In this document: positions 5,596 through 57,164 of the stretch, piece after piece
Layout: each line of letters opens with the position of its first letter
How positions within the stretch are numbered: position 1 is the first letter of the stretch
From: Sialis fuliginosa
Lineage: Eukaryota; Arthropoda; Insecta; Megaloptera; Sialidae
Direction: 5' to 3'
Length of the DNA: 64,000 nt
NCBI GenBank assembly: GCA_961205875.1
Contig: OY540810.1
Coordinates: 27,466,001 to 27,530,000 of the forward strand
Program-made: the position numbers and the translations under genes
The notes under the pieces: generated by a model
Databases searched by the model: none
The model's input: only the letters and a program-made list of their open reading frames with translations
Told to the model about the DNA's origin: nothing

Positions 5596-5746
5596 TCTTG
5601 GCTTATGCGTCGGTTTGGTCATTCTATCGGCCATTGTTTCGTCATACATTGTAGTGGACATCTTCAGAATTTATTGAAAGTGAATTTTCGCGAGATTTTG
5701 GCAGATAGAACGATCAAATCGACGCTGCTTATACCCAGAAACCAAT
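5596..5746. repeat. foldback repeat with hammerhead-like core, copy at 5.6 kb
   Basis: An imperfect inverted repeat, with arms beginning CTTGG and ending CCAA. It is a diverged relative of the foldback at 56713-56898: both share GGTTTGGTC, ATCGGCCA/T and GTAGTGGAC. On the minus strand the left arm reads CTGAAGA (5661-5667), then a GTCCAC...GTATGAC helix and GAAAC (5636-5640), which matches the hammerhead core order. The right arm has lost this core. Confidence 0.6.
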
Positions 5747-6906
5747 ATTCATTATTCCTGTTACTTTATAGATACGCTACTGTTCGAACATCGGGAGAGT
5801 ATTTAAGTATACTAATCGCTTGTGCCAATCGGCCCTCGACATTTAAATGAAATGAAATTCTACATTAGACAAGTGTTTGTTCATGACGTAAGCCACTCGT
5901 AAATAATTGGAGAAATAATTGGTTTATAAATTAAAACAGAATTTTAACTCCATATTTAAAAAAAACTCTCTACAGAATTCCGGGAACGATTTTATTTTAT
6001 TCCCCTTTACCAGTTTAAAAATTATATTGTTTATTTGCCCGAGTTTTTGAATTAATTTAGTATCAAAATATTGATTAGATATAATTTTAAATTATAATTT
6101 CTTAACCTCAAAATTATTTTTGTATAAATATGTTATTCCTGAATTGTAATATTACGTGAAATAAAATTTTAAAAAAGTACTTACTATACGTCATATGACA
6201 CTTTTTGTAATGGTTCAAAAATTGATTCAACATTTTTAACACCAATTATTCACTATACATAAACATAAATATCAAAATGAGTATAACATACCTACTTACA
6301 TAAACTGACTTTTCAATGTAAAAAATCGTGTGGTTATTAAGTGTGCAAACATTAAAACAGAAACATAATTAACTTCATTCCAGTAAATATATAATATATA
6401 TCTATATCATGGTTTATTTTTAATAATATTCATACGAGATTTATAATTAATAATTATCAAAGTCATATCAAAAGTTTAAAATTAAATTGTAAATCAAATG
6501 CACAAATGGTATGTTAATTTAAACGTCAAAATATATCTACATTTCCATTAATCTGAAATTACTCTATGTTTCATGTGAATATTGCTGTAATTTAAACTTC
6601 ACACAATATGCGAAACCGTATGTATTTTAAAAACTAAAATTAACTCTGATAATGACTTTGGTAGAATTTAGTCTACTTGTACATACTTTGTAATAATTTT
6701 AATTGTAATTAAATTATATAATTTGATATTCAAACAAAAATTACCAAGATATGGAACGTTCTGATATCAAAAAGAACATATTTAATAATGAATTCCTTTT
6801 GAGAAAACAAAGAATCATTTAATTTTCGTTTCAGTTTTATCAACTTTGTTTTTTTTTAAAATATTTTTAACTTCAAATATTTTTATTTTCAATAAATCAG
6901 CATGTA
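5747..6906. other. AT-rich DNA, nothing recognised
   Basis: Very AT-rich with homopolymer runs. No coding similarity, paired termini or tandem array was seen. Confidence 0.55.
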
Positions 6907-7203
6907 AGGTACAGACATCAATCTTGGCCCCTTTAATAGCAAGGTATACTGTTTTTTGGGTAATTCTTATGAACTCATATTATTAATAAAACAAGTACCT
7001 CTTTATTAAATCAATTTAATTACACAAAAGTTATAAAATAAAGAATTTAAAATTTGAAACAATGTAATAATTAATAAATAAATTACACAAATAATTATTT
7101 TAAATGTCCACCATTTTGACATCAACAAATATTTCTAATTTAGTACATTTAATTAAACAAGAATTCAACACTGGGGTATGATCCAAGACTGGTGCCAGTA
7201 CCT
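6907..7203 (-). mobile_element. MITE, AGGTACTGG family, truncated inverted copy
   Basis: A 297-bp copy in the opposite orientation to the three longer copies. The right end reads ACTGGTGCCAGTACCT, the exact complement of the family TIR, and the left end is AGGTACAGACATCAAT. TA flanks both ends (6905-6906 and 7204-7205). Compared with the 525-570 bp copies it lacks roughly 230-270 bp internally. It still shows the family's TGTCCACCATTTTGACAT block and the TTTCTAATTTAGTACA block. Confidence 0.8.
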
Positions 7204-8435
7204 TACATAATTAAAATTGCATATAAAGTGGAGTTAACTTTTTTCGCTTCTGAACGATGAACATTTCAATACACATACATACATATATTGAAGTAGCCAC
7301 GTGCTACCAGGAATGTTCTACTCAAACATTTAAGCTCAGCGAAGTGCAAACATACACAGTTTGTATACCTAATATTGTTTGAAGATTCTTTAAGTCCAAC
7401 AACCATTGAATATTGTGTAAGGTTAAAAAGGTAAATTGAAATTAAATCAAAATTTAACCCAGCTATTATCTTCTTGAATACAAATTAATTAAATTTACTA
7501 TTAACTATATTTGAATTTAGTATATTATACATAATATAATGAATATGGGAAATCAAAATTTGATCTATGATTGCAAACATATAATTATATGTTGAATTGA
7601 ATTAACTGTAAATTATTGTGTTCATTTTTAGTTCGATTATGTTTGATGGTTAATGAATGGAAATATAATGTAATGTTTATTACACACGTATATATTTCGT
7701 TAATAAAACAACAGTTTTTGCAATCTATTATTATCGATTAAAACAAATAAACAGACATAAATAACTTAAATGTAAAAAAAGAATGCAATAAAACAATCAT
7801 TAGACCATTGCGAAAATTCACATAAAATATTTTATGAATCAACAACGTACATATATTTACAAAGAAAATAAATAAAACGAAAATTATGTTCACGTATAAA
7901 TACATTTTAAGCATTTTATATGTGTATTGTTATAAAGAATCCTTTTCATTCAAGCGAAAAAACTTTTTTATTACAGCAATAAAACCATAACAATGATATA
8001 TGAATAAACGACGGCCCATTATTTATATACAAAATATCATGAAAATTTATAGTAATTAGCATAAATAATAAGCAAGGTCCAGTCCTACCTAATAAGTACA
8101 ATGATCCTGACATTTCGAACTGTTGTAGTTTAAATCCAATACTTGTCATTAAATATTACACAACACATCACATATAAATATTTAATTAATCAAATCGAAT
8201 CCGAAAAAACACACATACACTGTGTTAGAGTAAAAAAATCACTAAAAACAGTAACAACACGTGGGTTGACAGTTGATGTTTTTTTTCCAATGGCGTTGGC
8301 TATTTTTACAATCCTCCCATACCAAGTTGTTTAGTATAAATAAAATATCACCCCCTGCACTGTTGGGTAAGGCACTAGTCACTGAACTTTGTTGACAATG
8401 TATAACAATACTATCATTTAATTGTTGCAAGCTTC
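7204..8435. other. AT-rich DNA, nothing recognised
   Basis: No supported gene. Composition becomes less AT-biased towards 8.4 kb, where the next region begins. Confidence 0.5.
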
Positions 8436-9050
8436 ATTTTCACACAGAATATGAATCACAAGATGGTATCACTACAGACGATCTGATCATTTGTTTCTTG
8501 CGTTTTTCTTCTCACTCGCACAAAGTTTTATGATTATTCATGAGCACACACAAATAGTGGATGTTATATATTCTGTTGTTTAATTCACATGATATTTTTC
8601 ACACACTTAACTACTTGAACTTTCCGTTTCGACCAAGACACATTGTTCTAGCTACCGTGGGAGTTTCACACAAAAACTAGCAAGGTGTGACGATTGTCTT
8701 AAGACGTGAACACACACAGACACACAGATACACACGCACGGAACACAGTGTGGTTCGTACAGCGCACAAATGAAGAGTGACCGAATGTCAGATGCCCACA
8801 TGCATGGGGCCTAGAGAGATTTTGCCCCGACAGATGTTTAATAGGAGCAGCCAAGCTACTGGTGCTCACAGCGGTATTGGTGGGGTTAACTTGAACGGGT
8901 TATTTTGACTGAACCACGCTGATCTCGCGCGGTCACTTGGGAGGGGGGAGTGTTCACTTGTAGTAGTAGATGTCGCTGCTCTACGCCACACTTGATTGCG
9001 TTCTAGCTGCGGCGGTTCATTGCTTCGGATCTACCTGTATATATGTGTAG
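8436..9050 (-). promoter_or_regulatory. GC-richer island, candidate promoter and 5' UTR (orientation uncertain)
   Basis: About 600 bp stands out from its surroundings by higher G+C, frequent CpG, CA-rich tracts near 8710-8745 and GC-rich stretches near 8925-9015. On the minus strand an arthropod-type initiator TCAGTC lies at 8907-8912, and the downstream sequence has the CA/AAG-rich look of an insect 5' UTR, with short upstream frames. No TATA box or downstream promoter element at the expected spacing was seen. No coding exon was found next to it. Composition and the initiator are seen; promoter function is inference, and it could instead be an enhancer or an old repeat. Confidence 0.3.
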
Positions 9051-9865
9051 GTAGATTTTAATGATCAGACAGATGATGCGTGTATATTGTGTATGATATA
9101 CTGATGATTACTGGAGATTTATTTTATCTTGTTTGTGAATTACGTAATTTCATTATACATTTATTTTTTGAATATTTCATGTGAAATACAAAATAAAATA
9201 TTTTATTTTAAAATTTTTTCAAGTATCTCTTGAAATTATAACTTAAGATTAGCAAAGTAGGAGAAAGCAGTTTTTTTTAAATTATACATATTTTATATTA
9301 TTTTTTAATGTTATTAGCCTAGCACCCCTTTAGTTGTGAACTATCCGTATTTTTTTTTTAATAAAAATAGATTTGATTTCGAAAAATTTAGTTTTTACTT
9401 TGTTAATAATTAAAAGTAAAAAATTAGATATAATTTGGCGATCTAGTTGTTGCACTTACACACGTTGTTTGCCTGTAAATTGCACTCTATTACTGTTACG
9501 GTTGTTTTTTTTCACGAGTCTTTACAAAACTTTGAATAAACCTGGTTCTGAAACTACACGTGAATGTATGTGTTTTAAAATTTTTATAGCATTTAAAAGG
9601 ATTGAAGTTTCGAATAATCAGTGTTTAAAACGTCTCTGTATAGAATTTTTGTGTAGAATTTCAATAAATAGAGCACTTCCGGCAAGTTTTCTCATTTACC
9701 GTGTATTAAAAACTATTTTTAATATCCAATTGCGTCTAATATTATTTTTTTAAATTAGTAAAATATATGAGCTATCCATAAATTACATATTAAAATTTTA
9801 GACTTTAACTATACATTGCTCTAATAATCTAATATTCTTTTACCATTATTTTGTATATATTATAC
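9051..9865. other. AT-rich DNA with one motif shared with 19.87 kb
   Basis: A 126-codon plus-strand frame at 9373-9753 lacks similarity to anything known and looks fortuitous. The motif AGCACCCCTTTAGTT near 9319-9333 is the complement of ACTAAAGGGGTGCT near 19868-19881, suggesting two decayed ends of one repeat family. No complete element could be drawn. Confidence 0.45.
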
Positions 9866-10440
9866 GCTGTGGCGCAACCAGCGGGGAGGTATGGGAGCTT
9901 GCCCCCCTTCTCGAAGTGCTGTACCTAGCGAGTGGCCAACTAGTTATACTATATAATATATACGAGATATACGTAAAATATATATGTTATATGTCAATGT
10001 CCCCCCCTCACCGTCATATTCCCCATTCATTTTAGTTTTGTTTCCTCGTAATTGTTAAGTAAATATTACAGTATTAAATATTGGTTGGACCACCCTACTG
10101 CCAACTCCTACCAACCCGGTTGGTAGGAGTTGGCCCTTGCTGAGGACGTTTAGGCAGTGGTAAAATGGGTTAGAATAACATTATCAGGTTTAAAAAATTA
10201 CTGGAGAAAAAAAAGACCTTCAGAAATTGAAGACGGTGCAAAATGATGAATGAAAAAAAGTTTTCAATTACAACAGCTATTTTCAGTGTTTTCCAGGGGC
10301 GCGGCGACCCCATTGACAACAGAACGACCACTTTGTGAGTAAATTGAAAACGTTCTTTAGATGCGGCTCCTTAATAAAAAAATTGTAAGAGCGAGTCGAG
10401 CCTCGTGTATTAGCGTCCCGTAATGTATAGTTTTTTAATT
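9866..10440. repeat. GC-rich repeat mosaic, unclassified
   Basis: Several GC-rich patches interrupt AT-rich DNA. They are GTGGCGCAACCAGCGGGG at about 9870 followed by GGGAGCTTGCCCCCC, a C-run near 10002, a perfect hairpin at 10100-10134 and CCAGGGGCGCGGCGACCCC near 10293. The GTGGCG...CCAG start and GGGCTTGCCCCCC-like box recall DNA-transposon ends. No matching partner end or target duplication was found, so this may be several truncated elements. Confidence 0.35.
10100..10134. repeat. perfect 16-bp-stem hairpin
   Basis: GCCAACTCCTACCAAC (10100-10115) is followed, after a 3-nt CCG loop, by its exact reverse complement at 10119-10134. No U-tract follows and the context is eukaryotic, so it is not a bacterial terminator. 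It is probably a fragment of a foldback element. Confidence 0.85.
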
Positions 10441-12753: not shown

Positions 12754-12783
12754 TAATATAATAGTAATGACGTTAAAATTAAA

Positions 12784-13016
12784 ATAATAACAGCTTACGT
12801 CAGAATTTATTTCAGAAAAAGTAATTGCGAGCTTTCGATTCATAGAATCGTCGTCAGGCTTTTAGATGGAATACAAATTTGAGAACATAATAATATGTCG
12901 TAATCTCAATAGTATTCCATCTAAAAACCTGACGATGATTCTACGAATCGAAAGCTTGCAATTACATTTTTTGTAAATAAATTCTGACGTTTACGCAATT
13001 AAGCTGTTATTATTAT
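12784..13016. repeat. foldback repeat with hammerhead-like core in both arms
   Basis: A 233-bp inverted repeat with arms of about 95 bp around a short AT-rich loop. The outer ends read TAATAACAGCTTACGTCAGA and, in inverse order, its close complement. Both arms carry the same core. On the plus strand it is CTGACGA (12929-12935), a GATTC/GAATC helix and GAAAG (12950-12954). On the minus strand it is CTGACGA (12851-12857), a GATTC/GAATC helix and GAAAG (GAAA at 12833-12836). A partial relative with AAATTTTGACGTTTAA downstream lies at 18680-18755. Confidence 0.75.
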
Positions 13017-13839: not shown

Positions 13840-13841
13840 TA

Positions 13842-16815: not shown

Positions 16816-18679
16816 AACGACTATTTATATATTAATTATAAGGGTTCCTAGTTTTTTACGGAACCCTAAAACATATCCTAACCTACCTCCTTAAACATTA
16901 TGAGTTTCATTCTAGTTTGAATAAGCAAAAATAATCATTATTTGTTTATTGTGAGTTAACGGAAAATTTACTAACCGTGATTATTTTTGTTTAGCAATTC
17001 ACCATACATCATATACATTACTGCATTGCACATAATGTTTTAGCGCAATGTGCAAAACAAACGAAAAGCATCTTAATAGTCTTCATAAAATATATCTTTA
17101 CACAAGCTTGTGGGGAAAACAACGAGTTAAAAACGGGTTTGTTTGTTCTGATTATCGTAACTACACAAGGTTGCACTTCGCGTCGTCAGGTGCATTAATG
17201 AAATGCTAATGAGAAAGATTCCCTATGCACAACACTTGTCTGCCGAAATGGGAGCAGCAGAAAATGTAAAAAAGGGTCCTTGTTAATTTGACAGAGCAAG
17301 ATTACACAAATTTACATTGTTTAGTCATTATTAATATATGAGTCGTTCAGAAACCTACATTACTTTTTGGTAATTTTACTTTTTAAACGTATTTGTAAAG
17401 TTTGGACTATTATTTGGACAGTAATTCAACGGTCAGTTTCAGTTTTAATGATTTGTTCAGTATGCAATTCTTGTAAGATTAACAAATTTAATTAAAAAGA
17501 TGCGCGAACTTTAAATTTTATAGAATTCAAGATTTACTCATACCAAAGTTTAAACTCATATTTTTAATGTCCAGTATTTTAAAGAAATTGGTGTAGTTTA
17601 ATTTAAACCTAACCAAACGCCTTCTAAAAGGTGTTCAATCGTTATGAATTTAGTTTGAATTTTAAAACAGTGGAAAGATACTTACCCTTTCTATGGTGTA
17701 TACCAATCACTAGTCCATAGCACGCTTGATTCATAAAAATCATAGAAATCGCTATTTACAGAATTTATTTAACGAGTCATACATACGCCAGGAGCATAAA
17801 AAGTGTAATTAACAAATTTTGACACACGCAGTTGATTTAAATAGCATTTCGCCAATTTTCATTCGATTACGTTACAACGGTAACATAATAAAGTAGATAG
17901 ATAAAGCTACAAATTTAATAAATTGCTAAAAATTTAATAAAATTGGACAAAATTTGTTTTGTAACAGCAATTTGAATTTTGTGAAATTGCCGAAATTGGC
18001 AAAAAAATTTTGTTTAAAACATGATTTTCGAAGGGAATAACTTTATGATTGTGTATAATTTAAGGTTTTTTTAGTTTAATTAGGATACATAGCTACATTA
18101 CGAATGATCTTTGGTTGAAGTATTTAATTAAAAAAAAATATATACGAATTTGAATGTTTGTAGTTTGTATATCGAAATAAACGTTTTTTTTTTGCAATAT
18201 CTCGAAAAAGAGAGTTGATCATTTTTGGATTTAGCGTGCACAAATTACCTTAGAAAAGTTGTTGTCTACCCCGCAATAAACAAAATTTTTTTGTCGGCCA
18301 GTGTTATAGACTTAATATTTATTTTGGCATACTGTTCATTTTATGAAAGCTCTATATACTTTACTCGAGGTAAGGACTTGAACTTTCTTACCTTAAGCTA
18401 CTTTCTACACTGAATGTCGTCGAAGTACCAATGTTCTCCACGAACTTTATGAACACTCTATATGCACTACCTCTTACATCTCTATGTATTATATATACTA
18501 TGTATTAATAAAACCAACAAAATTTATTCAAACATTTCCGTAGTCACATGAATTTTATTGAGATAACGACATCATTCTCAAATTTAAATCTTTATTAATA
18601 GGTATATTTCTGAATTTTTATTTTAAAATATCAATATTTTGCATTATATTTATTGTATTTAATTGTTACTTATTATATT
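16816..18679. other. AT-rich DNA with one hammerhead-like relic at 17158-17192
   Basis: No gene supported. On the minus strand, CTGACGA (17183-17189) is followed by a GCG-AAG-TGC helix and then AACC where GAAACC would be expected. This looks like a decayed member of the hammerhead-like series, without an inverted partner nearby. Confidence 0.4.
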
Positions 18680-18755
18680 TTAGCCTGACGATGATTCTGT
18701 GAATCGAATGCTTGCGGTTTCCTCTTCTTTAATAAATTTTGACGTTTAAACAAAC
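18680..18755 (+). repeat. single-arm relic of the 12.8-kb foldback family
   Basis: Matches the right arm of 12784-13016: CTGACGA (18685-18691), a GATTC/GAATC helix, GAAT in place of GAAA (18706-18709), then AATAAATTTTGACGTTTA. The core A-to-T change would inactivate a hammerhead. No inverted partner is present. Confidence 0.65.
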
Positions 18756-19390
18756 AAGTTTGGTTTTATTTATATTTAACGTCACTACTATTATATTATT
18801 ATACTATGTATTATATACTTCACAATCAGTAAGAAAGGTAAATCTTTACCTTTCGATGAAACAAAATAAAACAATACAATCCCGACAATTACGTATGCTG
18901 ATTTAAGTTTCGTTAGTAATCTTTGGTGAACTGCAATTAGGAGCGCATAGAAACACATAAATATTATGATCGCAAAAGTTACCTAGACAACGTATTAAGA
19001 GAGAAGTACTTTTATCAAGCTAATGAGTCTAGTCTGTGTCTGAGACGCTGTTCACCTGACTCAAACACTTTGACAGCCTATTCATACCGTGGAGATGTTA
19101 ATTACATCCGATGCAGGAGATTGTGATACCCAGGGACGGGTTTCAGAGGAATTATTAAGATGATACTTAACTTTTATAAAACAACGATTGATTTAAAAGA
19201 AAAATTAATTAAAAATTGTTTGTGTAGGAGTAAGAACATTTATGTTAGCATTTTAGAAGTTATTTAGTTTACTTATTTTGATACTAGACTAATATAATGT
19301 ATTATATGTTGAAATACTAATCAATCTAGATAATAATTTATAATTAGTTATCAGCATAAAAAAAATAATTTTATTCGATATGTATTTTTT
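18756..19390. other. AT-rich DNA; composition more balanced near 19.03-19.15 kb
   Basis: A patch near 19030-19140 is less AT-biased and non-repetitive within the window (GAGACGCTGTTCACCTGACT onwards). It could be conserved non-coding DNA, but no motif decides this. Confidence 0.4.
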
Positions 19391-19435
19391 TCACTTAAAC
19401 TAATAATATACACCTTAACCACAATAAAACAATGT

Positions 19436-19481
19436 CACTCGACACGTGTTTCGACTTCACAAGAAGTCCTCATCAGGAGCC
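19436..19481 (-). ncRNA. hammerhead-ribozyme-like motif, left arm
   Basis: Read on the minus strand: GGCTC, CTGATGA (19470-19476), one extra G, a perfect 6-bp helix GACTTC/GAAGTC with TTGT loop, GAAA (19449-19452), then the self-complementary ACACGTGT minus its first A shared with GAAA, C as the cleavage-site nucleotide (19441), and GAG pairing with CTC before the core. All invariant core positions are present. Two deviations from a textbook hammerhead are an unpaired nucleotide before stem II and a stem III with almost no loop, which would favour a dimeric form. Activity is untested. Confidence 0.4.
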
Positions 19482-19541
19482 TAACAGTTCCAGACTTCAG
19501 AAGTCTGGACAGTTCCAGACTTCAGAAGTCTGGAACTGTTA

Positions 19542-19587
19542 GGCTCCTGATGAGGACTTCTTGTGACGTCGAAACACGTGTCGAGTG
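19542..19587 (+). ncRNA. hammerhead-ribozyme-like motif, right arm
   Basis: Same module as in the left arm, on the plus strand: GGCTC, CTGATGA (19547-19553), stem II, GAAA (19571-19574), ACACGTGT, C (19582), GAGTG. Stem I can form CTC/GAG plus a G-U pair. One change in stem II (GACGTC instead of GAAGTC) introduces a mismatch, so this arm is predicted to be weaker than the left one. Confidence 0.35.
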
Positions 19588-19632
19588 ACATTGTTTTATT
19601 GTGGTTAAGGTGTATATTATTAGTTTAAGTGA

Positions 19633-21837
19633 CTAGAAACCACAGTTTCTCCGTTTTTCCAGTAATATGTATTTTTTTAATTAATAATAAAAAATATACA
19701 CTTAAAAATTTTTTTGTGGTTTAGTGCTTAGTTACAAAAATCAAATTTATTTACTTTTATTGAAACGAGATATATAATTTTGATAAGTGTATTTTCGAAA
19801 GCTTCAATTCAAGAAAAAAACAAAAATTTTCGAAATTATTTTTATTGAAAAAAAAGGATAGATCATAACTAAAGGGGTGCTGGGCCAATATCTTTAATAT
19901 TAATTATAGGCAGTTGTTTGATGTAGAATATCTCATGTATTATTAAAGATATCTGTCCATTTATTTATCTATTAATTTTAGAAGTAATGAAATCTAGAAT
20001 GAAGACAAAAGTTTTTTCTTCCATCGTGAAACAAGTGCGATCCTGATTAACAATAATAACTAAACGTAGGTCGTCTCTAACAATTTAAAACTTAGAGCAG
20101 ACGTCGTACTATTAAATGGTCATTAGTTCGCTTTGTGGAGAACGCGATGAGATGTTTAAAAAGGACCGAGGTTTTTGAGGTGGGAATTACAGCGTGTAAT
20201 GGCGATGTTATTTTCCAGATTAACCGAAATTTTTGTTTAACAATTTCAGTGTAGTCATTTCGTTTGGCTTTCTATTTAGTTTCATTGCATGTTGTGGTTT
20301 TTATGTGAAATGTCTGGTGGTGTACGCGCGATGTAAATACAAAGATATATTTTGGGGATTTTGTAGATAAGATTTAATTTACATTTATAATGAATGAGAA
20401 ACTGAGCGAGGCTTCTGTGATGATATGTAACTGATCTTGGATTCTATTTAATAATTGCGCTCAGAAAAATTTATAAATTCATTTTTTGAGGTTATATTTC
20501 CAGAACAAATTGCTAATGTGGCGGCATTGAACTCTTGAATATACAATGTTAGGTCCCCGAAATCAGGGGTTATTTTAGTGTGTAATTGTAGCTTGTTTCT
20601 GCAGTTCTAATAATGAAAACTGAAGTTGTAAAAGCTAATTTGTGTAATTGAAAAATTGTAAGTAGGAAGAAAGATCAGTAAGTGTGTAAGTGTACAGCAA
20701 AGTGTCTTTTTCAAAAGTTATTAAAGTTTTACATATTTATCGCTAAATTGTAACACTAATTTGTTATTATTTAATGACAGTTGCAATTTTATCGAAAATA
20801 TTCAAGTTTCCAAGTTAGTTTTAGAATGTCAAATAAATATTTTTAAAAGTTGTACACCGCAATCAATAAATGCTTCTTATGATCTTTCGAAATACATATG
20901 TAATTTGTTTTACAATTAAGTAACTGCAAAATTATTTATTGAGTAAATCTGTTAAAATTGATTTTTAATACTATTATCTACAGATTACATATTATTATAT
21001 ACAAAAAAAGTATTTCAAATTATTTTTTTTAATATTGAAATTAATGCCTGTTAACAAAAGACATTTGTTAATTATACTCATTAAAAAAATACTAGATACA
21101 AAAGTAGAAATAATTTAAAAAAGGACTTCAATCAGATTTTTAATGATACTGCTCATTTCAGCCAATCATTAAAAATAAATAGAACCCGAACTGTGAGCGT
21201 AAAAACGCCCCGAAAATGTAACCGTATACGTGGGCGTCTAACAACCGCGTTTGTCTGTATGTATTTAAGTACATACGCGTCGATACGAGGGGGTTCCGGG
21301 AATGTGAGTATCATTATGATATCTAATCATACTCTCATTAATAGATTTTCTATATGTCTAATTATCATATTTTATTAGTGTAAAAACATTTCTAAATGAA
21401 TTGGAAAATCTCACATTAAAAAATTTGCTATTGCTATTATATTACTTGCATATGTATTTTCCATTGGTACAGTAGATTTGAGTACATAATTTAACTATTT
21501 TATTTTAAAGATAAATATAAAACACTTTTATTTTTCTAGATTTTTTTCATAACAAGATTCAAAATTGGGTAATAATGAAGTGTCAAATACTATAATTTTC
21601 TTACGAGGTATTCAGAAAGTAAAATATATTTATCTTAATCAATACAATTCTCTATTAGTTGGGAAAATCAGTGTATGTATTATAAATTATAAGTACTGAA
21701 CATATTTTTCATGGATTTAATTTTATCAGACTATGTAGCTGTTAGAAAATTTTGCATAAGTTTGGATTGGGAAAAAAATGAGAAGGTGTGAACCCCAACC
21801 AAGCACTACAGATAGTGAAGCCTGAGAGAACGATTGT
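19633..21837. other. AT-rich DNA; GC-richer patch at 21190-21300
   Basis: ACTAAAGGGGTGCT near 19868 matches a motif near 9325 in inverse orientation. A CpG-containing patch at 21190-21300 carries a 61-codon plus-strand frame with no family match. Nothing else stands out. Confidence 0.45.
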
Positions 21838-22417: not shown

Positions 22418-22425
22418 CCGATTGT

Positions 22426-23117
22426 GAACTTAAAGTGCGTAAATAACGTTCTTCCGCTACAGTATTAAATATTCACGTGCGTGATTCACGCATTCACTCC
22501 CTTGAGCTTGAGATCAATCTAACTACCACTGAGATTTGTACAAGTCGGCGCCTATGTATGCGTATGTATTGTTGGCTGGTGATTTATGAATATTCATATT
22601 TACTTTAAACGCACGCATTACACATACTGGTAATTAATGCGATCATAACTTTGCTCTCGTATTAAAACAAAAGGAATTGATTAACGTTTATGTGTTTCGC
22701 ATATACGAATGTATTTATAATATAGAATAAATTAATAAAATATAATTTAGGTATGAAATATTGGAAGATGTTTCATAATTATTATTTTTTAAAAGTATAT
22801 GATAAAATTAGAACTAATGATTTCAGCGGAATTAAACGTTTTGATGGTTTTTGAATCAAGTGCGATCATTGTTTCAATAATGTTTGTATGATGTACATAT
22901 ATCGACCTGTGAACGACATACAGCTAAAACGGTGAAGAATTTAAAGATAATATATCTATCCTATTTTTAAAGACCATCACTAAATAAAAAACAGATATTT
23001 ACTATTCTCATTTTTGAATTTTGTAAATAATTTATAAAACGATGCACACACCAAATTAAAAAAAAAAAGTTGTTGAGAATTTTATTGGTTTTAAGGTAAA
23101 ATTTAGAACTGAAAATA
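22426..23117. other. AT-rich DNA, nothing recognised
   Basis: No gene or TIR pair. It includes a patch of near-neutral composition at 22470-22560 without an identifiable motif. Confidence 0.45.
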
Positions 23118-23663
23118 AGGTACTGACACCAGTCTTGGATATGACCCCAGTAATGGCTATTTTTAAATTAAATTTACTGAATTAGAAATATTTGTTGATA
23201 TTTGATTACTACCATTACTGAATATTAATCTATATACATTTAACTGTCTTACAGCGTGATTTGGTGACAACCGGCCAATAGATGTCAAAATGGTGGACAA
23301 TTAAACTAATTATTAGTATAATTTATTTATTAATTATTAATTATTATACAAATTTGACGATTATTTCTATTATATCCTTTGTGTCGTAGTACTTATCATT
23401 TTGTAATCATTAGAAAATGTCCATCAATGCGTGCTCATTACTGGTTTTATTTTATCCATTTTGGAGAAAAAACATAAACAAAATAAAAGGCTTTAATTTA
23501 AAAAACAAACTATATTTGCGGACTTTGGTAAATAAATTGATTAAATAAAGAGTTACTTATTTTATTAGTAATATGAGTTCATGAGAATTACAAAAAAGAA
23601 GCCTGTTAATCACAAAAACAGTAAACTTTGCTCTTATAGCGACCATAACTGGTGCCAGTACCA
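23118..23663 (+). mobile_element. MITE, AGGTACTGG family, copy 3
   Basis: A 546-bp element with left end AGGTACTGACACCAGT and right end ACTGGTGCCAGTACCA. TA flanks both ends (23116-23117 and 23664-23665). It is collinear with 27056-27625 and 895-1419, including GGAGAAAAAACATAAACAAA and ATTAAATAAAGAGTTACTT. A local AT expansion (TTTATTTATTAATTATTAAT) near 23320 also occurs in the 27-kb copy, so these two are the closer relatives. Confidence 0.85.
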
Positions 23664-27055: not shown

Positions 27056-27625
27056 AAGTACTGGGACCAGTCTTGGATATGACCCTAGTAATAGCAATTT
27101 TTTAATTAAATGTACTGAATTAGAAATATTTGTTAATATTTGATTACCACCATTCATAAATATTAATCTATATACATTTAACTGTCTTACAGCATGATTC
27201 GATGACAATCCGCCAATAGGTGTCAAAATGGTAGACATTTAAACTAATTATTAATATAATTTATTTATTAATTATTATACGTATTATTATAGCAACTGCT
27301 TTACATTGTTTCAAATTTGACTATTCTTTCTTTTATATCTTTTGTGTCGTAGTACTTGTCATTTTGTAATCATTAGCAAATGTCCATCACTGCGTGCTCA
27401 TTACTGGTTTTACTTTATCCATTACTGGAGAAAAAACATAAACAAAATAAAAGGCTATCATTTAAAAAACAAACTGTATTTACTTTTGTAATTTAATTGA
27501 TTAAATAAAGAGTTACTTTTTTTATTAGTAACATGAGTTCATGAGAATTACAAAAAAATAATGCCCTTTAATCACAAAAACAGTAAACCTTGCTATTATA
27601 GCGGTAATAACTGGTGCCAGTACCT
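27056..27625 (+). mobile_element. MITE, AGGTACTGG family, copy 4
   Basis: A 570-bp copy with left end AAGTACTGGGACCAGT and intact right end ACTGGTGCCAGTACCT. TA follows on the right (27626-27627); the left target site has mutated to GA. It is collinear with the 23-kb copy. It keeps the TAGCAACTGCTTTACATTG segment that is deleted in the 23-kb copy but present in the 0.9-kb copy. The 104-codon minus-strand frame across it is repeat-derived and not a gene. Confidence 0.85.
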
Positions 27626-35636: not shown

Positions 35637-37661
35637 GTAGGTATGTACGTGTAAAAGTAATTTTTCAGCAGCATTAATATTTTCACTAAGGATATACTGA
35701 AGCGGGTTTTGAACGAATAATCGAAAATTGACTTTTTGGTAGATAGTTATTAATTTGAAATTTATGGTATGAAACATTTCTCTTTTGTTTTGGTCGTTAT
35801 TTTGACCAGTCTGATTGTTTTAGCCAAATCCGAGTATTTGTAAAACACACAGAACCGATTGAACACCGAAGCCGAATTGAATATTCGATGTTTCCCCTAT
35901 TTTCTGCGGATAGTATTTAAGCGCGCGATATTTTATATACCTTGAGCATTAAATGTATTGTATTTCAGCAATAACATTTTAAATTCTGAGCATTATACAA
36001 AACATAAAGTGTGACATTAAAAATAATTTTTTGAGTAATAACATTTCCGTTTTGGCATTAAAATGTTATTTGCGCAGTAATGTTTGCGTTTATTATTTTT
36101 GTATAATTTAATTTGCTTTAGTGTTCCAATACGCCTCCCCAAATAAAAGAAAAGTAAACCTGAAGAATATGCAATTACTGACGTTACAACTATCAAATAT
36201 AGTGTTGATGTGTTAGAATAAACCTTACGTAACCTATCTTAACCTAATTTAATCTTACTAAAACTGAACAACCCAAAACTAATTAGGACAGTTAACTTGT
36301 ATTTTATTAGAACATCTCTGTACGATTTATAAAATATTATATAAATGCAAGATTGCTCATTTAGTATACAAATCTCACCAACCTAACACTCATTTAGCCA
36401 TTTTAAAGAGAATTTTTTTATATGTAATTTTATTTTTTTAATGAACAAAAAGTATTTTCTTAACGATAGTTTATATTATCTATTGCTAAAACACAAAAAA
36501 ATACTGTTCAATATTGTTTACAAATGCTATAATAATTTATTATAGTGTAAGAATAGTTTATTTAAAGCTCTTCACTATTTCTCATTTCATTTAAAATAGT
36601 GCGCGTTTAATTTGTTCCCTTTTTCTGCAAAGAGAGAGTCGTTTCCACAATATTTAGTAATTAGTAACCCAACAAGTAATTTTTAATTTCTTATTGATGT
36701 AAATAAGAATATATTCTATGAAACAATGTTCATCCCTCACGGGGTAAACTTAGACACCATACATGCATACATTTGGCCGTTTTATAATATAATTTAAAAC
36801 ATGTCTGATGTGCGCTCACGTTGGTCCCGGCAGGTCTACGCCACTGACTCATTTATCATTCATATTTTTCTTTGGAGAGAACATGTCTTGTGTAACAAGA
36901 AGATAGCAGTACAACACATAGCATTTGTGAGGTTATGTACGCTTGCAACTAATGGTGAGTTGCTGCCACAATGCACTATTGCTCTTGCTCACCTCGACAA
37001 AATGTGAGGTTATGTTTTATGGAAATTGTTGTACTGGATACAAAAATAAACCTTCTTGATGTTTGCACGCAGTAAACCTAGACTTGCGTATCTGCTTTAA
37101 TATGGCGTTTATTATTTAGCTATTGTAGGGATATTTAAAAATTTATATATGAAGAGTAAAAGGATAAAATGGGTTTCGTCATAGACATAGAGAATGGACC
37201 ACGCATCTGACTCGAAAACAGAGCTGTGTTAAAAGAAAGAGATAGAAAATGATTTGGGATATACTTGTCCTTATTTAAACAGGAGTAACTATTTAATTCT
37301 TCTTAGAAAAAGAGATAGCATCTCTCTCACTGTTTTGGAGAAATGTTACACCATTATGTTAATATATAATGCGCGATCCATGCTCTATATCTATGGGCTT
37401 CGTTCATTTTTTTCAAATCTGAGACTATGGCGGTTTTTTTATATTTTATTATTATTATTGGATAGTAAGTTTGGTCCATAAAAAATAATCGTTATGTTGT
37501 CTTGGGATTTGAAGAATTTAGTTTCTTCGCAGATTAAATCTACAGATACCCTTAAAAGATTGTATTTTTTTCACTTGCGAAAAAATTATTTACACTATCA
37601 GGCATGTGCGTTTTAAATACCTATCCAATTGCCACAATCGAAAAAATAGGCCAAATCTACC
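35637..37661. other. AT-rich DNA, nothing recognised
   Basis: A 68-codon frame at 36801-37007 lies in a less AT-biased patch (GGTCCCGGCAGGTCTACGCC) but has no family match and no splice context that decides it. No gene called. Confidence 0.45.
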
Positions 37662-44966: not shown

Positions 44967-44991
44967 TTGACTTCAACTGGATAGGTACATA

Positions 44992-50283: not shown

Positions 50284-50287
50284 TTAA

Positions 50288-52589
50288 ATGAAATATTGTT
50301 ACTTTAATAGAGCGCAATCATATTTGTTCCCATCAGTTTCATATCCAAAAAAATATAATATATAGGTAAATGCTGAATGGGTATATCATAAAATCATAAT
50401 AATAACTAAGGTTTAAGCATCCAGAATAAACAGAGGTATTTATATTTAGTGAAGATGTCTGTTTGCTTAAAACCCCCGGGGGCCGGGCCTGTGTGTATAT
50501 TGTCTATTTGCTTTGAAGCTAGATAGTTTAAGTTTTGATGGAGCATTGTTTTATTTCAGTAATTGCTGCGGGGAACGATTAAGACTTTGTGCATTTGTTC
50601 AAAGAAACAGAGAATGGTCGGAACTGTTATTTTTAACGGCCTTGCTACACAGAATTAACATTATAAACATCTCTCCATAAAGCTGACGATAAGGATGTTG
50701 ATCTTAATAAAGAATATTATGTATACTAGGGTAGAGTTTTATTTAGAGCTTAGCTTTACGATTACGTAAACATTCGTTGTCGGAAATTTTATAGGGTCTT
50801 GTGTACATCTACAAGGGATCCGTCATTTTAGTGACGTAGTTCATGTTTAATTTTAGTTACTGAACATGTTTTCAGTATCTTAAAATGCTGACACAGTGTG
50901 TAAAATAAATTAGATCTGGTACAATTTTAAATAAAATCATTAAACAAGAATGACTGGTAAAGTTGTAAATAATTTTACACTTCACATTTTCATGGAAGAC
51001 GTGACTTTTACTAGTCTGGTCCTGGATATCTCAACTTTTCTTTATGTGACCTTATACTTCAGAGATATGACATCATAACCTGTTTTTTAAATAGCTTTCT
51101 TTACTGTTTATATCATAAATACTTCTAACCTAACCCCATAACTATATAGCCACTGTAAATGAAAATATTTATTTTTGTTTATATTAATATAATACAATAA
51201 ATCGAATTGTAATAGCCAGTATGGAACTTTTTAATACATATTAATGGTGCTGTATGGGTGCGTATCGAAATCTCTGACAGAGATGTAATTTTATATGAAG
51301 ATATAAGGTAGGTATAATGCTAAGTGTATAATCCTTAGTATCACCACCTCAAATACGCTGGGTTTCATGAGTGACTCCTACCTGGATAACTCCAGGGCAG
51401 AATCCTATCCCACCGGTAATCCCAGTCTGCTAAGTATATATGCTGGCTGTGTGTGGGAATATTAAAGCAGTCAAATATTAACAACAAGTAATAATGTAGT
51501 TATGAAATTTTGAGTAAATATATTGATAATTGTATATTAAAGTTGGCCAACGCATTGTTTTCCAAAAAAGTCATAATTTTGCACTTAATATGATATTATT
51601 TATATGGATGTAAAGAGAATAAAAAGGCCTAATTAATGATATAAGAAAAATGTATAATGATATGACGCCACGTAAGAAAATTTAGATTGCCAAGTTGTCG
51701 TAAATAATCAGTAAATTTTCTATACAAAATATTTTTTTGTAAAGTTCATATTTTAGGCTGTATAATAATCTCCGTTACTTTTGATTCAACCTGTGTATTT
51801 TGAATATTTTGTGTACTTGTTGTATTATAGAAATTTAAATCTAAATAGTATTTATTAGATATTTTTTAAATTACATACTTTTTTCTTTATATCAAAACTT
51901 AACATACATTTTGGCAACAAAAATAAGGAAATATTATTAATATTAGTAAAAAATATGTGAATAAAGTTTTTAGTTTTTTATATACCATAAATGATATAAA
52001 CAATATAGTGTACAAAGAACCAAATTACTTGATGCTATAAATATTATAATAAATAGCGCACGTGATTTGAATGAAGAAACGAAAAAGAAGAGAACAGAAG
52101 GCAATGAAAAAACAGATTGGCCAAAAGCAATCACATTGGGAAACATAAATAATTTTAAACTACCAGTCAGAAATAAATTTAAAACAATCAGTGAACAGAA
52201 AAAGGGAAAACAAAGTCAAGTAAATATTAATGTGAAGTAAAAAAACACCAACTTCAACACAAACAAATTTTACTACCGAAAATATACTCATGAAAATTGC
52301 GAAAAGATAAAATATACTTTTTTGGATGAATTGGCTGAAGTTATTAACAGACAGATAAGAAATTAAAATGACCAACAAATATTACCTAAAAAGTCGAGAT
52401 CAAAAAAAATGCTATATATAGGTAGTAATATTGTGTGATTTTTTAAAATTACTATTTCTCAAATCAAATAAGTAAGTAAAAAACTAATCATGTAGAATAA
52501 AGAATAAGGCAATGTTTTTTAAAATGATTATTGAGGAAGCAGTTTATATAAGACTAAAATCATGAAAAATTTGTATAACAAAAATTATT
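50288..52589. other. AT-rich DNA with a mixed patch at 51290-51470
   Basis: The patch (CACCACCTCAAATACGCTGG, CTACCTGGATAACTCCAGGG, CCCACCGGTAATCCCAG) has normal composition and contains short self-complementary pieces such as CTGGATAACTCCAG. No TIR pair or gene supported. Confidence 0.4.
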
Positions 52590-52597
52590 ATGCTAGT

Positions 52598-52858
52598 CAG
52601 TGACGCATTATAAAAATAAGGGGCCTCAGTCCTCATTTTTTGGTCGAAAAAAATTAAAACATTTATAGAAAACATCATTCAAAGATACCTTTTTTGTTCC
52701 TTAAGCAATTGTGAGGGCCAAAAAGGATTATTTGAACAGAAAAACGAAAGTCTTTAAATATACATACAATTTTTTACTTATTTCCTGAGCTTGGGTTCTC
52801 CTTTTACCTTGGGGTCATAGGCAGTTGCCTAAAGTGGCTACTGTGTAACGCGACACTG
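52598..52858. mobile_element. hAT MITE, 261 bp, perfect 8-bp target duplication
   Basis: Ends are CAGTGACGCATTA and the complement of CAGTGTCGCGTTA. ATGCTAGT flanks both sides exactly (52590-52597 and 52859-52866). The CAGTG start and 8-bp duplication fit hAT. The interior is non-coding. Its right end is only 39 bp from the Tigger-type MITE. Confidence 0.87.
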
Positions 52859-52897
52859 ATGCTAGTTTAGATAATTGAGGAATAGATCAATATTATA

Positions 52898-53703
52898 CAG
52901 TAGAAACCGGTTATAACGACATCGAAGGGACCGGAATTTTAGGTCGTTATAACCGATTGTCGTAATAACCGATAATTAGAATTTTTTTAAGGTAATTTAT
53001 CGGAAAAACTAAAAATTTCATGAGTATGCTGAAATTATGTAAAATTCACCATCTGTGAGTGAAGATATCGTCAAAATAAAACTATGAGAATAATAATATA
53101 TAAAACATTTACGAATATTATATGATATTCAGAAGCGATACTCAACGTTATTTTACGGAAACATAGTGTGTTCTGATTGGTTACTCTCCACCAATCATGT
53201 ACGTACCAATACGATTTGAAATCTACATCTGTTTTCTGTTTATTAGAATTAAACCTAACCTACAAAACATGATGTATTATGTCAAACAATATTTTTTATT
53301 ATACAAAAAATTAAAATCAAATATATAATTTAAAACTTTTTATTTGGAAATTAAATTAAATAATACAAAGTAGGGTACCTACAGACTATAGACATTATAA
53401 CATGTATTTATTTTAAATATTCTGTAATTTTAGTTTGCAACACAGATGTACGTATGTATTTTGTAGCTGACGTTGCAGTTTAACTAAAAATTGAAACAAA
53501 AGTCGGTCCGTCGTACAAATCGATAAAATTGTCCGAAAATATTGTACAGATAGTCGTTAAAACCGGTATTTCGTTGTAAGCGATGTCGTTATAAACGGTA
53601 TATTATAAAAGGCAATCATATGGGATTTAGCCGAGACTTTTATTCTGCGTCGTTATAACCGGTACGTCGTTATAACCGATGTCGTTATAACCGGTTTCTA
53701 CTG
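52898..53703. mobile_element. Tigger/pogo-type MITE, 806 bp, perfect 27-bp TIR
   Basis: The TIR starts CAGTAGAAACCGGTTATAAC and continues GACATCG, identical on both ends over 27 bp, with TA on each side (52896-52897 and 53704-53705). The motif GTCGTTATAACCG or close variants occurs at least eight times in the subterminal regions. The interior is AT-rich and non-coding. Perfect TIRs suggest fairly recent activity in trans. Confidence 0.92.
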
Positions 53704-53743
53704 TATATACATTTCATAAGAAAATAAATTTCCAATCTATATA

Positions 53744-54325
53744 CGTGAACATCGTTTGTCGTACGTTTTTATTATAAAAGGAGTGAATGAAACTTATATC
53801 ATTCGAAAGGTACTGTGCCGTAGATGTGCACAAAAAAATCATGTGTGTATGTTGTAAAAAAAGAAGTTAACATACACACATGATTTTTCCTCTCGCTGTT
53901 TATTTCCCCTTGCATCGTTCAACTGCATACCAGCGCCACCAGACGGCAAAAATAAATAGTTTTGGGGTTCTGTCAAACGTAGAGAATACCAAATCAATTC
54001 GCGTTCAATTTCAGTGTTTTTATTTGGAAATTTTTGTTCTAATTAATAGCTTTTACTCTTAATAATAGCAAACGAAGTAAGTATCCAATTTTTAATTTAT
54101 TCATTTACGATTTCACTTATTTTTTACTAATAGTAAACGGAAATATATTTGTGTCATCTATTATTGTTTTTATATGTATATTATGATGATATGTATATTA
54201 ATATGTAGGTGAACATCGAAAATTGTCGTACTTTATTTTTGTATTTATTATAAAAGGAGTGAAAGGGTTAGGTAAGTACTGTGCCATAGATGTGCACAAA
54301 AAATCATGTGTGTATGTTACCGTTA
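53744..54325 (+). repeat. two-copy direct duplication of about 110 bp
   Basis: GTGAACATCG, a TCGTAC block, ATTATAAAAGGAGTGAA, TACTGTGCC and AGATGTGCACAAAAAA followed by TCATGTGTGTATGTT occur at 53744-53855 and again at 54209-54325. Between them lies a mixed-composition stretch (CAGCGCCACCAGACGGCAAA near 53930). This could be the two long direct ends of one element, or a local duplication. Confidence 0.65.
53835..53887. repeat. long perfect hairpin (AATCATGTGTGTATGTT)
   Basis: AAAATCATGTGTGTATGTT is followed after about 15 nt by its exact complement AACATACACACATGATTTT, a 19-bp stem. It sits at the end of the first copy of the 110-bp duplication. Only the left half is present in the second copy. 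Confidence 0.88.
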
Positions 54326-55090
54326 AGGCAAATAAAATATTGGTCAAATTTCGACAATAGGCGTCACTAGTATTATTTAAATTACTATTACTGTCCTCAG
54401 GTTACAATGCAGCAAGCATATTTCCTGAAATTTTTATAATAAAATATAACATACAATTTTTGCTGCGCATATTTTTTGTTATTATCATCACTTGTAAAAA
54501 TTAAAAAAAGTAACAGCAAACTTATTAAATTAAAAATTACAAGCATCAAAAAATATCATTCTGCTTTCTTTTATATCTAAAACAAAATCATAAAATATAC
54601 AAAAAATATAATTTAGTTATGTGATGTTTTATCAACCTAATACATCCACGACGCGGACGGAAGGAAGACGGAACATTTAAGTTAATGTGTTCTAATGAAA
54701 TTAGCTCTTATACACCATATCAAGTAGAAAAATATATTAAATGATGTTGCAAATTTATTAAACGGCGTCAGTGTAATCAAATTCAAATCACGAAGATCAA
54801 AGTACAGAATTAAGATTCGTTTCCTGTCTTGATTATATTCGTGTATGAGTTTATATACATTAAATTTGTTACGCTCAGTGGCGGTTCGTCAAAAGATCAT
54901 TTTCTATAAACACAATACAAACAATAGTTGTTTATCACAAAGGCACTATTTTGTTAAAGCACCGAGTACCTATTCAGATGTGATATATAAAAACATTAAT
55001 TTGTACTGTAACATTAACATTAAAAATATTTTAATTATTTTTATTTGATCTATTTTCTATAAATATAAATAGTTTACGAACGTCACTTAT
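54326..55090. other. AT-rich DNA, nothing recognised
   Basis: No gene or element supported. Confidence 0.5.
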
Positions 55091-55674
55091 AGGGTCAACT
55101 GGGGTAAAAGTGAAACAAAATACAAATCTTTAATGTTTTTTGACAGTTAACGATACAAATTTATATTTTAATTTTTTCTACTAGATGCGCTTATGAATAA
55201 CCATTTTAAATACTTACGTCATTTGAACTGTACGATACAACACGGACTTTAAAAATGAAAAAAGTGTGTTTAATTTTTAACCTCTAATTTGGGAAAAAGT
55301 GAAACAGGTAAGGGAAAAAGTGAAACAGACCTCTAATGGAAAATATTTCACGAAAAATTAAAAGAAAACTTTGATTTATCTTCTTTGTAGTATATTAATG
55401 TGAAATTGTAACTTTAATTAATATTTGAGCTATACAGAAAGTTATGTGCAAAGAATTAAAATTTAATTCACACGTTTTGACATCGACTAACAGGGAAATC
55501 TGTAGGAGTGACACATCAATTATTAGGCGATTCATATTTTCAGGTCGCTTTAACAAACCTTTAATGATGATATCAGTTTTTATAATTCTTCTATAAACAA
55601 ATTAGTTTTTTAGTTGCAAGCTTGTTTAACTTTTACCCTATTTTTGGTGTTTCATATTTACCCCGCTCGACCCT
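55091..55674. mobile_element. MITE with GGGGTAAAAGTGAAAC termini, 584 bp
   Basis: The left end AGGGTCAACTGGGGTAAAAG is matched by the complement of the right end (AGGGTCGAGCGGGGTAAATA), both followed by TGAAAC, for about 26 bp with several mismatches. The block GGGAAAAAGTGAAACAG occurs twice internally near 55291-55327. No transposase frame. The flanks contain TA/AT but the duplication is not certain. Confidence 0.7.
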
Positions 55675-56712
55675 AATCAAAAAATTTATCATGGATGCCA
55701 CGAGTAGACTTTCTTATACTTAATACTTAAACTATTTATGTGTTTCTATTTTTATTAAAAATATATTTCTGACAAACTAATTTCTCGAATTATTTTTGAA
55801 ATCGTGCAAATAAGAAAAAAATGTTTTGATTAAAAATTGCAGAGAATATTATGATCTATAATTTACGTCCGATTCATTTTTCTATCATTTATGATTTAGT
55901 CAGAAAGTACGTACACTTAATTAACAGTGTATAGGAAAGTCCCGCGGTAACTATGGCAGTATTTCCATATAATTAAAAACATGTACACTGTTCAATCTCA
56001 GTAATATGTATACGAATTTTTTTTTTTTAAATAAATAAATAAATAAATGGATATTTTAATAATAATAAATCGTTTACGTACAAAAATGAACAGCTTTCAT
56101 TTGACACCTTACTCACTAGGATTAAAAAAAAAAATTGTTGGCCCCTTAAAAAAATGACAAATAATTTAAAAAAAATATAATTGACAGTGAGTTCATAGAT
56201 TGGAAGCATAAAACTAATTCCATGTTCCGCTACTGGTATGCATACAATTAAATTTGTTACGAAAGACGGGTGAGGTGAGGGCGTAGAGGAAGGTGATGTT
56301 TACTTTCGTCTCTTTAATTATATTTATTCTTGATTTTTAAAACAAATTTCCTCCGCAAATATTGACGTATGAGTGAATTATCTTCACAAGACAGGATGAT
56401 GTAAACAAACGGCGAAGCTTGATACAGACAAAGGTAAACTTCTCATGCTCGTGTTTGTTAGACTTGGACGGAGGTGGAATTATTTTTTCTGCCCAGTAAA
56501 AGAAAATATCAAAATTTATTCGAAACTGCTTGGTAATTATTGATTGGACTAACCCAGGCAATTTTTTTATCACATCTGGTATTTTCTTGTATATATTCTG
56601 ATACAATTATTTACATAAATTTTTTGTTTTAGGATCATAGTTTTCTTATATTTATAACTTGTATATTTTGGGTTTTACAAGTCTTGAGGATTCTGCGGTG
56701 ATCTTGATATAG
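55675..56712. other. AT-rich DNA, nothing recognised
   Basis: An (AAAT)n run at about 56029-56047 is the only simple repeat. An 89-codon minus-strand frame at 56337-56606 has no family match. Confidence 0.45.
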
Positions 56713-56898
56713 ATCTTGGATTCTGGGTGTAAGCCGCGTCGGTTTGGTCGTGTTATCGGCTAACGTTTCGTCACACATTGTAGTGGACGTCTTCAGGGCA
56801 CTTTTAGAAGAGCCCTGAAGGTGTTCATTACAATATGTGGCGAAACGTTGGCCGATAACACAACCAAATCGACCCGGCTTATACTCAGAAGCCAAGAT
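56713..56898. repeat. foldback repeat with hammerhead-like core in both arms
   Basis: A 186-bp inverted repeat with arms of about 85 bp and a 10-14 nt loop. The outer ends are ATCTTGG and CCAAGAT. On the minus strand the left arm gives CTGAAGA (56790-56796), a helix GTCCAC...GTGTGAC, and GAAACGTT. On the plus strand the right arm gives CTGAAGG (56815-56821), a helix and GAAACGTT (from 56842). Flanking GCC/GGC can form a short stem I in the right arm. It is about 80-85% matched between arms and is related to 5596-5746. Confidence 0.85.
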
Positions 56899-57128
56899 TC
56901 ATATTTTGGGTTTTGATTATTATTTATATGTTTTTATTATCTTCAGTATAAGAAATAACAATATATTATGTATAAAATTCACACAAAGCTTGAATAATTA
57001 TAATTTTTTTAAGTATGCGTTCTTGGTCGTTGTTCATATGAACTAAGTTTCCGAATTGTTGTCCAAGTTGTCGTATTTCTTCAGTTTTAGAAATATTAAG
57101 GAGAAGGCTCCGATACAATTTCAGAAAC

Positions 57129-57164
57129 ACTTCTGAAGAAGATAAGCGATTTGAAACGTCAAGT
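57129..57164 (+). ncRNA. hammerhead-like motif without a foldback partner
   Basis: ACTT, CTGAAGA (57133-57139), AGATAAGCGATTT as a weak stem II, GAAA (57153-57156), CGTC with C at the expected cleavage position (57160), then AAGT, which pairs with the initial ACTT to give a 4-bp stem I. The core nucleotides are all there, but stem II is poorly paired. It might be chance. Confidence 0.25.

Follow-up and report, generated by a model that had tools for sequence, protein, structure and literature searches.

What is the short sequence module that recurs across unlike repeat families in a 64,000-nucleotide stretch of the Sialis fuliginosa genome? The stretch, hereafter the window (contig OY540810.1; C2:27466001-27530000; 23-34% GC per 2 kb), comes from a genome of 392 Mb in 20 contigs. 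An initial annotation had noticed CTGANGA, one unpaired base, a helix and GAAA at ten places in the window and had likened them to a hammerhead ribozyme. We find it highly probable that the module adopts the fold of a type I hammerhead in which an extra base separates A9 from stem II, that it lies in the pseudo-long terminal repeat (pseudo-LTR) of Penelope-like elements (PLEs), near the start site of reverse transcription, and that its short copies are non-autonomous head-to-head pairs inserted by PLE machinery.

The module recurs far above chance

The pattern CTGANGA-N(8-30)-CGAAAC had 5,223 matches in the genome compared to 201 for the reversed pattern. A simple pattern matched six times in the window (0.29 expected). 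Strict modules, defined by an exact CTGANGA, a stem II of at least 5 bp (one bulge permitted) and GAAA, numbered five in the window (300 dinucleotide shuffles averaged 0.127), and the extra base was present in 5/5. These genome and window counts rule out a chance origin, and the expectation that matches exceed those in shuffled sequence was borne out. A window scan with one core mismatch gave eight modules; because shuffles reached a mean of 3.4 and a maximum of 10, the excess is not clear and decayed copies cannot be called from that scan alone.

We trained a covariance model, R2, on an alignment (A5) of nine representatives drawn from eight families. The training set included families A, C and E and the 12.85-kb copy of the window itself; families B, I, K and L were held out. 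Searched up to E = 10, R2 found ten places in the window, nine of them at E ≤ 0.07; the tenth, at 36153 (E = 2.7), was regarded as chance. Family B was recovered at 19.4 and 19.5 kb (E = 0.0079 and 0.069). Nine of the ten places first proposed are therefore confirmed. The copy at 17.2 kb is not, since neither the covariance models nor a scan tolerating as many as two mismatches in the core returned anything there. The 18.7-kb copy, proposed as decayed, was found by R2 and has GAAT for GAAA. The module does recur between repeat families, as proposed, but these number four rather than three: A (5.6 and 56.8 kb), B (19.5 kb), C (57.1 kb) and E (12.9 and 18.7 kb). The extra base, said to be shared by all copies, gave the best register in eight of the nine modules; the exception was the decayed 57.14-kb copy, with 4 bp when no base is skipped compared to 2 bp otherwise.

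Searches of viral contigs with the module pattern returned at least 120 stretches. Among 80 loci examined, three had extra-base and three had textbook stems (≥ 4 bp), counts given without a chance level. No viral contig matched the family A pattern. A PLE profile search found no relative in viral contigs and only four distant bacterial reverse transcriptase (RT) loci in genome contigs outside the host genome.

Stems I and II covary around a displaced stem II

We compared 17 representatives of the module. All have CTGANGA, one further base (two in family G), a helix opening with a G paired to C, and GAA; in two PLE units the opening G pairs with U instead. The flanks that form stem I differ between families, for example CACTT/AAGTG in C, CTC/GAG in B, GCC/GGC in A and TGCA/TGCA in I. 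Families A and C to I were picked by a scan requiring a stem II of at least 3 bp with zero, one or two bases skipped. Four representatives (G, L036, L049 and L034) were omitted from the set of 13 and from the stem I test, as their stem III could not be placed. Among the representatives, L, L058 and L059 are 86-91% identical, and C and D are perhaps related.

With one base skipped, stem II was paired at 50 of 52 positions in the 13 representatives (permutation mean 34.6; 0/20,000 permutations reached this) and at 65 of 68 in all 17. Skipping none (22/52) or two (20/52) gave only permutation-level pairing. Stem I, which had no part in the selection, was paired at 33 of 39 positions compared to 18.2 expected (0/20,000), and at 29 of 33 after removal of the two relatives of L (0/20,000). 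Among the first 100 genome matches listed, all on contig C1 and chiefly of families A and B, the register had one extra base in 77, two in one and none in zero, with no clear stem in 22. The textbook register, in which stem II sits directly on A9, was thus seen in 0/100 of the matches listed, and the departure from the textbook hammerhead asserted at the outset stands. Since pairing peaks at one skipped base and is at background otherwise, the inserted base is real and nearly uniform and does not reflect a misreading.

Alignment A5 gave a similar result. We observed pairing in 80.2% of cells compared to 51.3% in shuffles (0/500 reached this), and double-sided changes in 26 cells compared to 9.3 (0/500). 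The covariation score was 0.753 (0.217 in shuffles, 0/500), whereas slid partners scored 0.05-0.22; stem I by itself scored 0.861 (0.188 in shuffles, 0/500). The core CUGANGA ... GAA, A15.1-U16.1, H17 and the G-C pair closing stem II were invariant in the nine rows, which had been chosen by core letters and not by U16.1 or H17. H17 was never G in the 13 representatives with a placeable position. Covariation of stems I and II identifies the module as a type I hammerhead fold. The earlier suggestion of a structured RNA with compensatory change, made for stem II, holds across families and extends to stem I, although by programs other than R-scape.

Full-length Penelope-like units carry the module

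A GIY-YIG search of the genome gave two loci. One of them, L030, is a 5'-truncated PLE with a GIY-YIG domain over the Pfam cut-off and a module ~97 nt before its 3' end; its RT exceeds the Pfam cut-off in L031, which is the same place. L030 is flanked by an exact 12-bp duplication, and an unoccupied copy of its target repeat lies at 27.3 kb in the window. With the RT of L030 as query, 150 matches were scored out of 459 candidates, many of them in units of ~3.4-3.6 kb with open frames of 896-915 amino acids. The C-terminal segments of the K and L frames share 45% and 43% identity with the GIY-YIG part of L030; Pfam scored neither RT nor GIY-YIG in these frames, and the link is their similarity to L030.

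Thirty loci were fetched by RT homology. R2 matched 22 of them (E ≤ 1), of which L031 was in the training set and most others are near-identical copies of K and L. A letter scan added modules in L034, L036, L037, L049, L050 and L059 and found none in L032 and L033. The module precedes the open reading frame (ORF) in K and L, at a distance of ~140 nt in L.

Some units form arrays, such as the one on C10, where six minus-strand units are followed by four on the plus strand. Within one array, units differed by 0-1 mismatches over 2.3-3.7 kb (five minus-strand units on C11, three on both strands of C4, two on C2), and the plus arm of the C11 array differed from its minus units at 2-6 positions. 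Same-family units from different arrays differed at 6-29 positions, so that the ranges touch. The opposite-strand neighbours L049 and L050 had 5 differences over 1.6 kb and the tail-to-tail units L047 and L048 had 35, which points to separate insertions or to age. The near-identity of units within arrays is compatible with their having been copied from a single multi-unit or circular RNA; unequal exchange following insertion is the alternative.

The context of the module is therefore that of PLEs, with RT and GIY-YIG domains, module-bearing tandem units, one tail per two-armed insertion and duplications. Location in either Penelope-like or foldback elements had been put forward as a question, and both parts were right, as the module occurs in RT/GIY-YIG units and in head-to-head pairs.

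Several further features of the units were seen. Head-to-head arrays, of up to ten units among those listed, lie at C10:984944-1019606, C7:62157-89811 and C3:36752227-36771979. RT matches also fall inside the first 150 kb of C5, C7, C9, C10 and C11, possibly near chromosome ends. The outer ends of nine of ten K-type units adjoin (TA)n runs (L039, L040, L042-L044, L046-L048 and L051, with L045 the exception), and L047 and L048 share a single run; the pattern suggests that these units are targeted to TA microsatellites. Their 3' ends occupy two positions ~36 bp apart, five units each. At C4:10575808-10582830 (L040-L042) the arms are cut back to near-equal unit positions, 366 and 371; at C11:1673446-1691484 (L052-L057) they are cut back to unlike positions, 1316 and 2830, with a 2-bp overlap. 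Such cut-back positions would distinguish self-priming from independent priming.

Short copies are head-to-head pairs with a single tail

Short copies of families A, B and C consist of two head-to-head arms, each made of the module and the part downstream of it. Using core, head and tail probes (tail probes were built for A, B and C only), we observed exactly one tail, on the left or the right side, in 20/20 two-armed loci. Eleven further groups were one-armed or fragmentary, with one tail or none. They include the decayed, tailless C pair of the window, left uncounted because the core of its plus arm was unmatched. Target-site duplications of 12-17 bp (≤ 1 mismatch) flank 16 of 22 elements and the other six score 0-9; a duplication score of at least 10 was reached in 16/22 elements compared to 5/300 mixed flanks.

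One could explain these copies as DNA foldback or miniature inverted-repeat transposable element (MITE)-like palindromes moved by a DNA transposase, the hammerhead likeness being a by-product of the palindrome. The many near-perfect short palindromes (119-bp arms, 98%) and the target-site duplications fit such an origin. Stems I and II, however, pair inside one arm, around a core common to families with unlike arms. The same module is found in RT/GIY-YIG elements, one-armed insertions occur, and the additional tail on one arm is unlike terminal inverted repeats. A foldback-only origin is largely refuted, chiefly by the one-tail rule (20/20 loci), and we give it hardly any credence.

Spread as retrozymes, small non-autonomous elements that move as hammerhead-made circular RNA, is also very unlikely. 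It would agree with a type I hammerhead in many non-coding copies alongside PLEs in the same genome, and with L004 (C1:304 kb), one of the 20 two-armed loci, in which three tandem units of family A repeat directly with a 187-bp period and one tail apiece. Each of these units contains the target-site duplication, however, so that the repeated unit of this sole tandem comprises both element and target duplication, the outcome expected of a DNA duplication. In published descriptions, the retrozymes of metazoans are tandem direct repeats whose hammerheads are mostly canonical (PMC7229834; this and the other cited papers are drawn on in excerpt), whereas the copies here are inverted pairs with a PLE tail and a non-canonical register.

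The short copies have a fixed-looking head ~20 nt before C3 (read by eye). In family A, the start codon consists of A9, the extra U and the G that opens stem II, and the frame that begins there is open for 37 codons to the tail end (~+111) in 5/5 copies checked. Families C and D (L010 and L027) also seem, by eye, to share a readable start, M-x-V-E-T-S-S, past the module, which would place the hammerhead across the beginning of a Penelope frame there too. We found no autonomous element with arms of families A, B, C or E among the 150 of 459 RT candidates scored.

Stem III is mostly reduced to a short palindrome

In most families stem III is reduced to a short self-complementary word. A palindrome of 4-14 nt directly follows GAA in 13 of the 17 representatives: ACGT in A, C, D, H, I and J; ATAT in F; AATT in L, L058 and L059; ACACGTGT in B; AAAATAGCTATTTT in K; and AGCT in E, including both 12.9-kb copies of the window. 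A four-base stem III is too short for its own hairpin, and two copies can pair with each other. The predicted double-hammerhead dimer of B is near the minimum (-30.9 compared to -34.3 kcal/mol), and in K the predicted minimum has the two stems III paired and stem I unpaired. In the seven other families, different folds are favoured. This mixed picture agrees with published statements that minimal PLE hammerheads without helix III possibly cleave as dimers (PMC7761336) and that the hammerhead of the Anolis PLE cleaved solely when the protein was present (PMC11167929).

A proposed route of insertion

These data suggest a route in which the RNA would cleave itself after position 17, probably as a dimer held by the palindromic stems III, and, by analogy with another PLE, the PLE protein would assist cleavage. 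The head of the short copies would mark the start of transcription, and their far ends two reverse-transcription start sites. Both target strands would be primed on PLE RNA, one from each of the two neighbouring start sites, and the two complementary DNAs (cDNAs) would join head-to-head to leave two arms and one tail. Tandem units would arise by copying of multi-unit or circular RNA.

Several observations weigh against this reading or parts of it. No Rfam family matched at gathering level anywhere in the window, a search of 56.7-56.9 kb gave no hammerhead even up to E = 10, and Hammerhead_1 scored only 18.9 and 17.7 bits at family B (cut-off 34). Eight of the 30 RT loci, L059 among them, had no R2 match. 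The PLE units J, K, L, L058 and L059 taken alone showed no significant stem I pairing (12/15 compared to 9.6; 1,988/20,000 permutations). In A5 the excess was weak both for pairs with a double-sided change (8/9 compared to 6.2; 73/500 shuffles) and for further pair types (16 compared to 12.5; 38/500). The representatives were preselected for stem II, so that its pairing is partly ascertained; the register is not, since the three offsets were treated alike in selection. The self-complementary piece after GAA, described as common to all copies, is found in the 13 representatives named above and is lacking in G, L036, L049 and L034 (4/17) and in the E copy of L020. Other predicted folds beat the double hammerhead in A, C, D, E, I, J and L. 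Finally, hammerhead mutants of the Anolis PLE still insert in vitro (PMC11167929), and cleavage may be irrelevant to insertion.

The position of the predicted cut bears on this last point. It would fall within the copied stretch, so the short copies derive from RNA that was uncut there; cleavage is then unnecessary for such insertion, as the Anolis mutants likewise suggest. The hammerhead may instead be used to process transcripts of several units, to separate message from template, or to keep two RNAs joined.

It is possible, though we doubt it, that the modules are relics only, with a fold inherited from active PLEs and short copies that neither form nor cleave RNA. The related proposal that, within the head-to-head hairpin, the module of each arm would be tied up by pairing with the opposite arm is similarly doubtful. 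A transcript across both arms would fold on itself, and a broken core or stem is seen in at least three (18.7, 56.83 and 57.14 kb) of the nine modules found in the window. This account bears on the fate of the copies and not on the identity of the module, and many of the PLE matches combine an open frame of 896-915 amino acids with an intact module, so that the fold persists where it is possibly needed.

We consider improbable, as a whole, a more specific scheme in which the module, no less a site of dimer initiation than a ribozyme, pairs two PLE RNAs, recruits the protein and sets the head-to-head, one-tail outcome. Palindromic stems III would join the two RNAs as a double hammerhead, which would recruit the PLE protein (the Anolis counterpart is a predicted dimer), and each RNA would prime one target strand from a different start site, always leaving one tail. 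The base after A9 would act as a brake on the fold up to the point of pairing and protein binding. As this base also makes the start codon of family A, cleavage would switch message to template. If this scheme were true, the extra-base form would be a distinct hammerhead class of PLEs.

Relation to known hammerheads and Penelope-like elements

Minimal type I hammerheads of PLEs were reportedly described by Cervera and de la Pena in 2014 and by Lunse, Weinberg and Breaker in 2017. They have been known since 2014 and are abundant in animal genomes (PMC7761336, PMC6155905, PMC8490949). The fold proposed here has in common with them its type I topology, a very short stem III, a site in pseudo-LTRs, thousands of copies and a probable dimer. 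It differs in the base inserted after A9 (two in G) and in a stem III that is a perfect palindrome in 13/17 representatives. The literature surveyed does not name an extra base in PLE hammerheads; the primary 2014 and 2017 descriptions lie outside it, and we do not claim absence in print. De la Pena and Flores are said to have described in 2001 a hammerhead of Chrysanthemum chlorotic mottle viroid with an extra core nucleotide next to A9. That hammerhead, a type III, shares the one extra core nucleotide with the present form and is a single case with no retroelement. Minimal PLE hammerheads and an extra core nucleotide in a viroid are thus already known, while the uniform extra base and the mode of insertion are unusually clear here. 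A variant class defined by the extra base, as first suggested, is plausible within this genome.

A close likeness is to the Anolis PLE (PAc), compared by description. Its hammerhead lies at the junction of pseudo-LTR and ORF; the ORF begins at stem II, and C3 and G8 both precede the start codon; reverse transcription begins 111-118 nt into the ORF; and the tail, 30-40 bp in the genome, spans the interval between two sites where reverse transcription starts, the enzyme cleaving and extending both target strands (PMC11167929). Family A similarly has its start codon at stem II and its tail end at ~+111. Unlike in Anolis, the K and L modules lie upstream of the ORF.

In structure, the short copies match Penelope of Adineta vaga, which has inverted head-to-head pseudo-LTRs, a 31-bp tail that one of the two may carry, short duplications and junction palindromes (PMC3846280). 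The likeness covers the inverted pseudo-LTRs, the one tail and the short duplications. The word 'hammerhead' was not found in the main text of that paper, and its excerpts describe no long head-to-head arrays like those seen here (PMC3846280).

One genome thus presents roughly a dozen families that share the inserted base and have covarying stems, beside full-length units that are apparently recent. The strict geometry, with one tail per two-armed insertion and a ribozyme near the start of reverse transcription, makes a link between ribozyme, dimer and two-strand priming testable, and the alignment supplies a hammerhead form that Rfam thresholds miss.

Features of the window

Table 1. Hammerhead modules, their carrier elements and target-site duplications in the window (positions are those of the window)
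Feature	Position	Strand	Evidence
Family A module, fragment; neither second arm nor tail detected (head probe only)	5625..5674	-	R2, 24.4 bits
Family A sequence of the 5.6-kb copy, CTGAAGA T GTCCAC..GTATGAC GAAAC	5667-5636	-	pattern scan
Family E module, left palindrome arm	12820..12864	-	strict scan, R2 (copy in training set)
Family E palindrome arms	12810-12874 / 12912-12976	.	arm comparison
Family E module, right palindrome arm	12922..12966	+	strict scan, R2
Family E module, decayed (GAAT replaces GAAA)	18678..18721	+	R2, mismatch scan
Family B left target-site duplication, ATATGTATTTTTTT, ends uncertain by 1-2 bases	19378..19391	.	
Family B head-to-head element, 119-bp arms, 98% complementary, 4-bp spacer	19391..19632	.	
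Family B module, left arm, 8-nt palindromic stem III ACACGTGT	19433..19483	-	R2 (family held out); Rfam Hammerhead_1, 18.9 bits
Family B module, right arm, one stem II mismatch	19540..19590	+	R2; Rfam Hammerhead_1, 17.7 bits
Single Penelope-type tail of the family B element	19633..19664	+	probe
Family B right target-site duplication	19665..19678	.	flank comparison
Family A left target-site duplication, ATATTTTGGGTTTT	56663..56676	.	flank comparison
Family A head-to-head element, single tail on left (minus-strand) arm	56679..56898	.	probes
Family A module, left arm	56753..56803	-	pattern and strict scans, R2
Family A module, right arm, core decayed to CTGAAGG	56808..56858	+	R2, mismatch scan
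Family A right target-site duplication	56901..56914	.	flank comparison
Decayed family C pair, tail not detected	57057..57169	.	probes
Family C module in the decayed pair; stem II best without the extra base	57126-57169	+	R2, register scan

The target invaded by L030 is an interspersed repeat with three copies on the minus strand of the window (27062-27507, 23116-23547 and 893-1311), and the 27.3-kb copy displays the empty site.

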